A stretch of DNA of 38,772 nt from a virus. The translations under genes and the position numbers were made by a program. Position 1 is the first letter of the stretch; each line of letters begins with the position of its first letter. This document shows, piece after piece, positions 2,620 through 8,830 of the stretch. The notes below the pieces were generated by a model that made no database searches, was not told the origin of the DNA, and saw only the letters and a list, made by a program, of their open reading frames with translations. The DNA lies in IMG/VR virus record IMGVR_UViG_3300009161_000107, positions 1-38,772 of that record; one strand, 5' to 3'.

Positions 2620-2712
2620 AAAGCCCTATACAACCTCCATTACAACTCGGCCACGAATTGCAAGGGATGAAGATAGGGCTTTGGATTTTTGTCTGATTTT
2701 TCATGTGGCCGA
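2620..2712 (-). promoter_or_regulatory. Leader RNA of the Sak4-like gene with pseudoknot-order helices
   Basis: Two perfect inverted repeats interlock. AAAGCCCTAT (2620-2629) pairs with ATAGGGCTTT (2673-2682), and TCGGCCAC (2647-2654) pairs with GTGGCCGA (2705-2712). In the minus-strand RNA the order is helix 1 5' arm, helix 2 5' arm, helix 1 3' arm, helix 2 3' arm. This is an H-type pseudoknot, or a pair of mutually exclusive helices. Loops are about 22, 18 and 17 nt. The last arm ends 15 nt before the ATG at 2604. The block lies between a candidate promoter and the start codon and has no coding frame. A cis-regulatory RNA is inferred; the ligand or protein is unknown. Confidence 0.6.
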
Positions 2713-3839: not shown

Positions 3840-3852
3840 TTTCTATTTTTTT

Positions 3853-3906
3853 ATATTGTTATTTTGATTCTGTAAAAATACATACATAATACATATTCTC
3901 GACAAA
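3853..3906 (-). promoter_or_regulatory. Promoter-like repeat, copy A
   Basis: This stretch of about 54 bases is nearly identical to 4613-4666. Both lie directly upstream of a minus-strand gene, and neither is likely to be coding. On the minus strand both contain a palindromic ATGTATTATGTA element, then TATTTTTA or TACATTTA followed by CAGAATCAAAATAACAAT. The TAnnTTTR-CAGA core matches the -7 box at 2728-2735. A duplicated early promoter or operator is the simplest explanation. Confidence 0.55.
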
Positions 3907-3944
3907 ACAATAAAAATATTTTTTTTATCCTAATTATCAGCCAA

Positions 3945-4584: not shown

Positions 4585-4612
4585 TGTGTCGCTTTTTTTT
4601 AATTGTTTAAAT

Positions 4613-4666
4613 ATATTGTTATTTTGATTCTGTAAATGTATGTACATAATACATACTTCCGACATG
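4613..4666 (-). promoter_or_regulatory. Promoter-like repeat, copy B
   Basis: This is the second copy of the 54-base element at 3853-3906, with only a handful of differences. It follows a probable terminator and precedes the 115-aa gene. On the minus strand it carries TACATTTA-CAGA as a candidate -7 box, next to a symmetrical TATGTATTATGTACATACA region that could be an operator. Conservation of the whole block, not just the box, argues for regulator binding. Confidence 0.55.
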
Positions 4667-4686
4667 AACACAAAAATAAATTTTAA

Positions 4687-7687: not shown

Positions 7688-8076
7688 AAGGTAGGGATTT
7701 TTATTCCTTTAACCAAAAATGGAATTATCTTATAGTCTGGGTTATGATTACCCAAATCATATACCATCGTTAAAGTATATTTTGTTCCCATTGCTCCATG
7801 ACTATCCTGTCTTACCTTCTTTACATTTTCCAAAATCTTTATTTCTGGATATACCGACTGAATCGACTCAATTAATCCAGAAAGAATTGAAATAACATCT
7901 TGCAACGTCTCACATTCTGCCCTCTTACTTGAAGATGGAGCCATAGCATGAGAGTATAGTTTTTGCTCCAAAATCGTGTTACTCAAATAATCCAACCCAT
8001 TAACACTTTCCTCCAAGAGAGAATCGAAGGAATAGCCATAAGTGCTTAATTCTGGTAATAATAGTTTATGGTTCAT
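7684..8076 (-). CDS. First gene of the leftward arm, hypothetical, 130 aa
   Basis: No family is recognised. The product is helical in its first 95 residues (including DVISILSGLIESIQSVYPEI) and then has beta-like segments (KYTLTMVYDLG). It is the first gene after the structured leader at 8088-8209, and its stop overlaps the SF3 helicase start by 4 bases. That position makes it the gene most exposed to any leader-based control. It could be a helicase loader or an early regulator, but only the position suggests that. Confidence 0.62.
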   Translation of the reverse strand: MNHKLLLPELSTYGYSFDSLLEESVNGLDYLSNTILEQKLYSHAMAPSSSKRAECETLQDVISILSGLIESIQSVYPEIKILENVKKVRQDSHGAMGTKYTLTMVYDLGNHNPDYKIIPFLVKGIKIPTL

Positions 8077-8087
8077 ATTATTAAATT

Positions 8088-8209
8088 AAAAACCCCCTCC
8101 CATAATTTCACGGATGACTAAGTCCGCCAATATGAATTGGTGCGAAATTACGGGAAGGGAGTTAGAAATATCTTTTGGAATCATTATTGGCATTAATTAA
8201 CTTAGTCAT
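8088..8209 (-). promoter_or_regulatory. Structured leader of the leftward arm: three-way junction versus alternative helix
   Basis: An outer stem (8095-8109 with 8144-8159, about 15 bp with one bulge) encloses two hairpins: CGGA/TCCG (8111-8126, loop TGACTAAG) and CCAAT/ATTGG (8127-8140). On the minus strand the outer stem is followed by GGTTTTT, like an intrinsic terminator. A competing helix is possible: ATGACTAAG (8114-8122) with CTTAGTCAT (8201-8209), and GCCAATA (8126-8132) with TATTGGC (8185-8191). It uses both hairpins' bases and excludes the junction. The layout is that of an attenuator, riboswitch or protein-controlled leader for the whole early arm. It ends about 12 nt before the first ATG at 8076. 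Confidence 0.62.
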
Positions 8210-8213
8210 GACG

Positions 8214-8221
8214 CAAAAATA
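8214..8221 (-). promoter_or_regulatory. Candidate promoter -7 box of the leftward arm
   Basis: On the minus strand this reads TATTTTTG, matching the Bacteroidota TAnnTTTG box. The expected start, about 5-8 bases downstream, falls at or next to the 5' arm of the alternative helix (8201-8209), so the RNA would begin with that arm. No convincing TTTG -33 box is seen. The nearest GGACKTA repeats lie 44 bases upstream, where a regulator could act. Confidence 0.45.
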
Positions 8222-8264
8222 CAAACTTATTTCGAAATTGATACTCTTTCGAAAAAATATATGT

Positions 8265-8830
8265 GGACGTAAGGATTTTTCGCTACGTCCTAAATTTGTA
8301 CTTTTTTGCCTCACTACGTCCAAATCGGTACTTTTTGGGGTAAAAAACCAATTTAAAAAATAAAAAAGTATGTATTAATTTTTTTCATGTATTTTCGACT
8401 TTTTGACCTAAAATGTCAAAATATGGACGTAGTGAGTCCAAAATAAAAACAGCGGATTGACGTCCGACATGGCTCAATCCCAATAAATATAGGACTTGGA
8501 CTTATGGACTTATGTGACTTTACGTTTTTTACGACTCTACGTCCACTTTTTTGAAGTTGTAATATATTGATTATTAGTTATATATATAATTTTAATGTTA
8601 ATTAGGACTTATGGACGTAAGAAAAGTAAAAGATTATTTGAAAAGCAAAACAATGAAAAAAGGGGCTTGTTCTACTTTCTAAAAAAAAAAGGAGTTTTTC
8701 TACGTCCATACGTCCACATTTAATAAGTAGCTGATAATATGGTATTTAGATAAATAAAATGCAAATCCAAATCGTCCAAAATAAATATTATTTACTTAAC
8801 TTATTACAAATCAGTGAATTGCTTACGTCC
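8265..8830. repeat. GGACKTA repeat array in the divergent control region
   Basis: Nine exact GGACGTA heptamers occur on either strand: 8265-8271, 8425-8431 and 8613-8619 on the plus strand; 8284-8290, 8315-8321, 8538-8544, 8701-8707, 8709-8715 and 8824-8830 inverted. A GGACGTC variant is at 8459-8465, and GGACTTG/GGACTTA variants are at 8492, 8498, 8506 and 8605. Three pairs are spaced exactly 8 bases (8498/8506, 8605/8613, 8701/8709). By eye the ACGTCC core is otherwise seen once, near 30674. An AT-rich tract lies inside the array (8560-8605). Operator array, replication origin iterons or both are possible. Confidence 0.75.
8283..8338. repeat. Two direct copies of a 25-base unit within the control region
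   Basis: The unit CTACGTCC-aaat-GTACTTTTT occurs at 8283-8307 and again at 8314-8338, 31 bases apart (about three helical turns), with three or four differences. Each copy contains one inverted GGACGTA element. The fixed spacing puts both binding sites on the same face of the helix. The weak frame across this stretch (8175-8363) is not considered a gene. Confidence 0.6.

Follow-up and report, generated by a model that had tools for sequence, protein, structure and literature searches.

A pseudoknotted leader upstream of a Sak4-like recombinase gene and a predicted family of such leaders in Bacteroidota phages

Results

Two interlocked helices precede the Sak4-like gene

The DNA analysed here (the window) is the whole 38,772-nucleotide stretch of virus record IMGVR_UViG_3300009161_000107, and the features of the two leaders described below lie on its minus strand. 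The Sak4-like AAA_24 ATPase gene occupies positions 1693-2604, with its ATG at 2604. Upstream of it, at 2620-2712, the initial annotation had described two perfect inverted repeats of 8 and 10 bp, interlocked in the order a-b-a'-b'; both repeats are present there, and the coordinates of the arms confirm their order. In the 5' to 3' direction, the leader comprises the 5' arm of helix S1 (a, TCGGCCAC, 2705-2712), near the 5' end of the transcript, an A-rich linker L1 of 22 nt (2683-2704), the 5' arm of helix S2 (b, AAAGCCCTAT, 2673-2682), the 3' arm of S1 (a', GTGGCCGA, 2647-2654), which lies within the hairpin loop, and the 3' arm of S2 (b', ATAGGGCTTT, 2620-2629), which does end 15 nt 5' of the ATG, as had been noted. 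The S2 arms also pair in the predicted fold, which adds a third helix, S3, between TTGCAA (2663-2658) and TTGTAA (2645-2640), a helix covered by the family-wide test below; the nested fold of S2 and S3 has z = -3.8. When perfect helices were required to have arms of 8 nt or longer, each with four or more G+C, the window yielded this interlocked pair and no other; the mean was 0.05 in simulated windows. A DNA search of phage records with the leader as query returned no match.

The leader was also correctly placed between a promoter box and the start codon: the predicted -7 box TATATTTG lies at 2735-2728 and follows the TAnnTTTG consensus (PMC9723704). Since the flavobacterial box spans -12 to -5 (PMC9723704), +1 of the transcript is predicted at about 2723 and S1 would start near +12. 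The gap between box and S1 is 15 nt, within the 10th-90th percentile range of the family described below (7-17 nt), and the U-run is weak, with 4 T among the 8 nt after S2. The description of the leader as non-coding was inexact, as it is filled by a 32-codon ORF (2704-2606) that begins just after a and has its stop codon 1 nt from the Sak4 ATG; this ORF is probably there by chance, because ORFs of at least 20 codons occur in only 5 of 50 leaders of the family.

That two structured leaders stand in the same arm of the window was borne out as well. In the second, at 8093-8209, the topology is the same, the arms are longer and some pairs are G-U: a predicted -7 box TATTTTTG (8214-8221) is followed by the S1 5' arm ATGACTAAG (8201-8209), the S2 5' arm TCCCTTCCCGTAATTTCGC (8142-8160), the S1 3' arm CTTAGTCAT (8114-8122) and the S2 3' arm GTGAAATTATGGGAGGGGG (8093-8111), which runs directly into TTTTTAATTT. 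Its U-run is strong, its S1 would start near +1 by the same box rule, and its S2 ends 16 nt upstream of the ATG at 8076. No relatives were found of the gene behind it.

Further regions of the window were noted. The divergent intergenic region adjoining the second leader (8260-8830) holds many copies of GGACGTA/TACGTCC-type motifs and is a candidate origin or operator. Two promoter regions on the minus strand, at 3840-3910 and 4600-4680, have ATGTATTATGTA-like sequence in common, and with it the leader start ACAGAATCAAAATAACAATAT; no pseudoknot was found in either, and they perhaps mark a second early regulon.

The architecture recurs in Bacteroidota phages

The first additional examples were unexpected matches of the same topology in loci of Sak4 homologues, each flanked by a TAnnTTTG box upstream and a start codon downstream. 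The scans that followed used approximate stacking energies and thresholds chosen after these examples had been seen. A promoter-anchored scan of 129 Bacteroidota-phage loci (1.58 Mb), assigned to these phages from homology and the type of promoter and not from host records, gave 30 unique leaders at -25 kcal against 2, 2 and 2 in shuffled sequence, and no excess appeared in other phages. With 261 loci (3.5 Mb), a strict box and no U-run requirement, 53 unique leaders were obtained at -30 kcal (9 and 6 in shuffles), 42 of them with an ATG nearby. Requiring promoter, U-run and ATG together left 15 leaders against 0 and 0 in shuffles.

The promoter could also be dropped from the search. With only U-run and ATG required, 48 matches were found against 7 and 8 in shuffles; a TAnnTTTG box lies within 60 nt in 17 of the 48, the other 31 being without one, and S1 starts 7-12 nt after the box in 12 of those 17. 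The matching scan of non-Bacteroidota phage loci gave 14 matches against 11 in the shuffle, i.e. no excess. Given these shuffle controls, chance pairing is rejected as an explanation of the leaders.

Among cultured phages, Flavobacterium phage mumin9-1 carries two leaders, one of them before gp37 of NC_048837, Cellulophaga phage phi18:3 one, and tooticki6-1, which infects strain LMO6, one scored leader plus one that is homologous by alignment; the family thus extends to cultured phages growing on Flavobacterium sp. LMO6 and LMO9. In the parts examined of crAss001, B40-8, 6H, FL-1, Gundel_1, P12024L and phi46:1, no convincing leader was seen. The recurring leaders share one architecture and have unrelated arm sequences.

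Anatomy of the leaders

In the curated leaders, the medians are 8 bp for S1, 22.5 nt for the A+T-rich L1, 10 bp for S2, 10 nt for L2, 8 nt for L3 and 17 nt from the end of S2 to the ATG. Helix S3, between the end of L2 and the start of L3, can form in 37 of 50 leaders, where 16.5 are expected and the maximum in 2000 loop permutations was 25. As S3 flanks a', it places a' in a hairpin loop. On sequence evidence, the element is thus a promoter-proximal hairpin, built of S2, an internal loop and S3 and ending near the start codon, with an apical loop complementary to the transcript's extreme 5' end. By eye, the S2-S3 internal loop is often GAGUA/GAAA, resembling a sarcin-ricin module, or tandem G-A. 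Geometry would predict that L1 varies in length with the hairpin, but this was not seen.

A U-run follows S2 in 28 of 43 leaders that had not been selected for it (65%), compared with 11% of 2715 background genes; in the latter, this position is A-rich. About a third of the leaders have no U-run, and both helices are still kept in these.

A variant was seen before primase genes in L150, L260, L262 and L264, which carry AAGTGCAGT/ACTGCACTT and GTTCACGTT/AACGTGAA. In these leaders S1 begins almost at the promoter box and the U-run lies between a' and b'; they may represent a different element.

Both interlocking helices covary

Covariation in related phages, proposed with the initial annotation as a check, was found in both interlocking helices. 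Five leaders that stand before a helicase-primase operon, from four cultured Flavobacterium phages (mumin, tooticki, morran and snusmum; hosts LMO6 and LMO9) and the metagenomic relative L304, could be aligned: each of the 23 pairs is 100% paired (all 115 cells), and 8 of the 23 show double compensatory changes, three in S1, four in S2 and one in S3, against 0 in slid controls. Likewise, the Sak4 leaders L186 and L182, whose proteins are 86% identical, differ by six double changes in S2 and S3, S1 being unvaried, and in a set of seven Sak4 leaders (58-86% protein identity) pairing is retained by stems that mostly have different sequences. Leaders within one genome are orthogonal, with an average of -10.8 kcal for an arm with its own partner and -1.9 kcal for cross pairs. 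Together, these comparisons indicate that the pseudoknotted structure almost certainly exists and is under selection, the H-type pairing of a with a' being maintained by compensatory changes. An excess of G-U over A-C mismatches would mark RNA on the leader strand; the counts, 19 and 10 (p = 0.14), are suggestive only in that direction.

In phage morran9-1, the annotated gene HWC92_gp42 lies across a pseudoknot leader (L355, NC_048836 14157-14300) and is probably not a gene.

Leaders mark operon starts rather than Sak4

The genes behind the leaders encode BT4734-like, DUF5906 and VapE-type primases, a DUF3987 Prim-Pol protein, DnaG-DnaB, ResIII and PIF1-like helicases, a DUF3127 SSB (directly downstream of the leader in L102), ParB-methylase, Lin1244-type proteins and Sak4, and also HNH and GIY-YIG endonucleases. 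Replication and recombination functions predominate, in a tally that is biased because loci were fetched around replication genes. Sak4 relatives with 55% identity or more and at least 150 nt of upstream sequence numbered 74 after removal of redundancy; only 6 of them have the leader, the window included, and in many of the others the Sak4 gene closely follows another gene. The leader goes with operon starts, not with Sak4.

The initial annotation had inferred control of recombinase synthesis by a pseudoknot-order leader. The leader and its regulatory position stand; the link to Sak4 itself does not. Intact Sak4 genes without either helix, named in advance as the observation that would count against the proposal, make up most of the relatives, which speaks against Sak4-specific control but not against the RNA element. 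A Sak4-specific operator is therefore rejected; the same architecture also precedes primase, helicase, SSB and endonuclease genes.

Discussion

The comparisons above place the Sak4 leader in a predicted family of cis-acting 5' leader RNAs of Bacteroidota phages. At the level of the family, the most likely role is that of a promoter-proximal attenuator, which would either terminate transcription at the U-run or limit the access of ribosomes. Such an attenuator would determine how strongly replication and recombination genes are expressed. As RNA polymerase moves off the promoter, a could pair with a' at a time when b' is still to be transcribed. The usual U-run, together with the G+C-rich S2 base, would serve as an intrinsic terminator just upstream of the start codon, and the frequency of read-through would be set by pseudoknot formation, perhaps with a phage or host protein. 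Where the U-run is poor or absent, as in the Sak4 leader, the hairpin would probably limit ribosome access instead.

In F. johnsoniae, initiation favours A-rich motifs and low structure from -20 to +20 (PMC6847099), so a stable hairpin followed by U in this zone looks bad for ribosomes and good for termination. This makes transcription attenuation our leading reading of the main output of the family, at a probability of about 0.45, with translational gating second. Terminator calling called none at either leader of the window (2620-2712 and 8093-8209), and the U-run between a' and b' in the variant set argues against termination after S2. As the U-run of the Sak4 leader is weak and about a third of the family have none, output may differ between members. 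The expression platforms of riboswitches likewise vary in output.

The alternatives each account for part of these observations. A pseudoknot in the ribosome landing zone could block or license initiation, possibly through the DUF3127 SSB-like replication protein, much as T4 gp32 acts on its own messenger (PMC3014915). The short distance between S2 and the ATG lies within the zone kept unstructured in flavobacterial mRNAs (PMC6847099), one leader directly precedes the DUF3127 SSB gene, and both helices persist where the U-run is missing. However, such a translational operator does not explain why a U-specific run replaces the normal A-rich motif, and the leaders offer no common sequence for a protein to read, except the frequent GAGUA/GAAA-like internal loops; we regard it as possible but rather unlikely. 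More doubtful is a role in messenger stability alone, in which the 5' end, tied into the hairpin loop, would shield phage mRNA from 5'-end-dependent decay without any switching. S1 does begin close to the predicted 5' end, at a distance of about 15 nt at most, and the fold alone is conserved, but both the U-run and the closeness of S2 to the start codon would be left unexplained.

Leader-peptide or coupling control could be imagined from the way the 32-codon ORF fills the Sak4 leader, but it is disfavoured by the rarity of such ORFs among the leaders and by a peptide without family match, and we consider it very improbable. Equally hard to sustain is the idea that the inverted repeats function as DNA, as repressor or replication sites. 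The mismatch counts leave some room for it, being suggestive only of RNA, but promoter, U-run and start codon always share one strand and follow one order, and the arms differ among leaders of one genome, unlike protein sites.

Attenuation thus remains the preferred reading, and a broader form of it can be put forward tentatively, at rather less than even odds. The phages may possess a genome-wide regulon of sequence-independent RNA attenuators, in which each replication or recombination operon has its own pseudoknotted terminator whose loop pairs with the nascent 5' end. The fold alone would be conserved, and either a shared factor or the rate of transcription would read it.

Among the closest known systems is the T4-type gene 32 mRNA operator (PMC3014915): there too, a phage gene of replication and recombination has a pseudoknot in its 5' leader, with A+U-rich sequence after it. 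In T4, however, 67 nt separate the pseudoknot from the SSB gene downstream, whereas S2 of the Sak4 leader ends 15 nt from the AUG of a recombinase gene. The leaders described here also stand before many genes, several per phage; their arms are unrelated, and they contain the additional helix S3. A 2010 review considered it possible that T4 gene 32 was still the sole case of translational autoregulation by a viral pseudoknot (PMC3014915). The STAXI motif (PMC2864571) also places pseudoknots near SSB and other DNA-handling genes, but it is an Enterobacteriales repeat with the pseudoknot two or three times in tandem, while the leaders of Bacteroidota phages have a single copy behind each promoter.

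Intrinsic-terminator attenuators of bacterial leaders would resemble the phage leaders in their series of promoter, leader, G+C-rich hairpin, U-run and gene. The phage leaders, however, have no classical antiterminator sharing a terminator arm, the hairpin loop being predicted instead to pair with the transcript 5' end, and about one in three has a weak U-run or none. Pseudoknot riboswitches of the preQ1, SAM-II and fluoride type are, as here, small pseudoknots close to a start codon or terminator, but the phage leaders have neither a conserved sequence core nor an Rfam match, and the genes are not metabolic. An Rfam 15 search with the window and eight related loci gave nothing above gathering score, only sub-threshold hits such as mir-454 (27.8 of 60 bits), and a known RNA family is rejected on this ground. 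These leaders would escape RNA-family searches that rely on sequence, since their arms drift freely but still pair. A literature search, with subscription journals mostly outside its reach, found no description of such a family. Judged from sequence, the leaders would thus form a new RNA family of a kind already known, the structured cis-acting leader, and their features suggest an undescribed kind of RNA switch gating phage replication genes.

Little is known of regulatory RNAs in Bacteroidota phages, and here an apparently undescribed, strongly covarying pseudoknot family fronts replication genes in many of them, which makes replication timing in these phages directly testable. A separate observation concerns homing-type endonuclease genes (HNH/NUMOD4 and GIY-YIG), which have leaders of their own at L101, L159, L193, L300, L351:11673 and L353:3598, as if the endonuclease gene and its leader had moved together.
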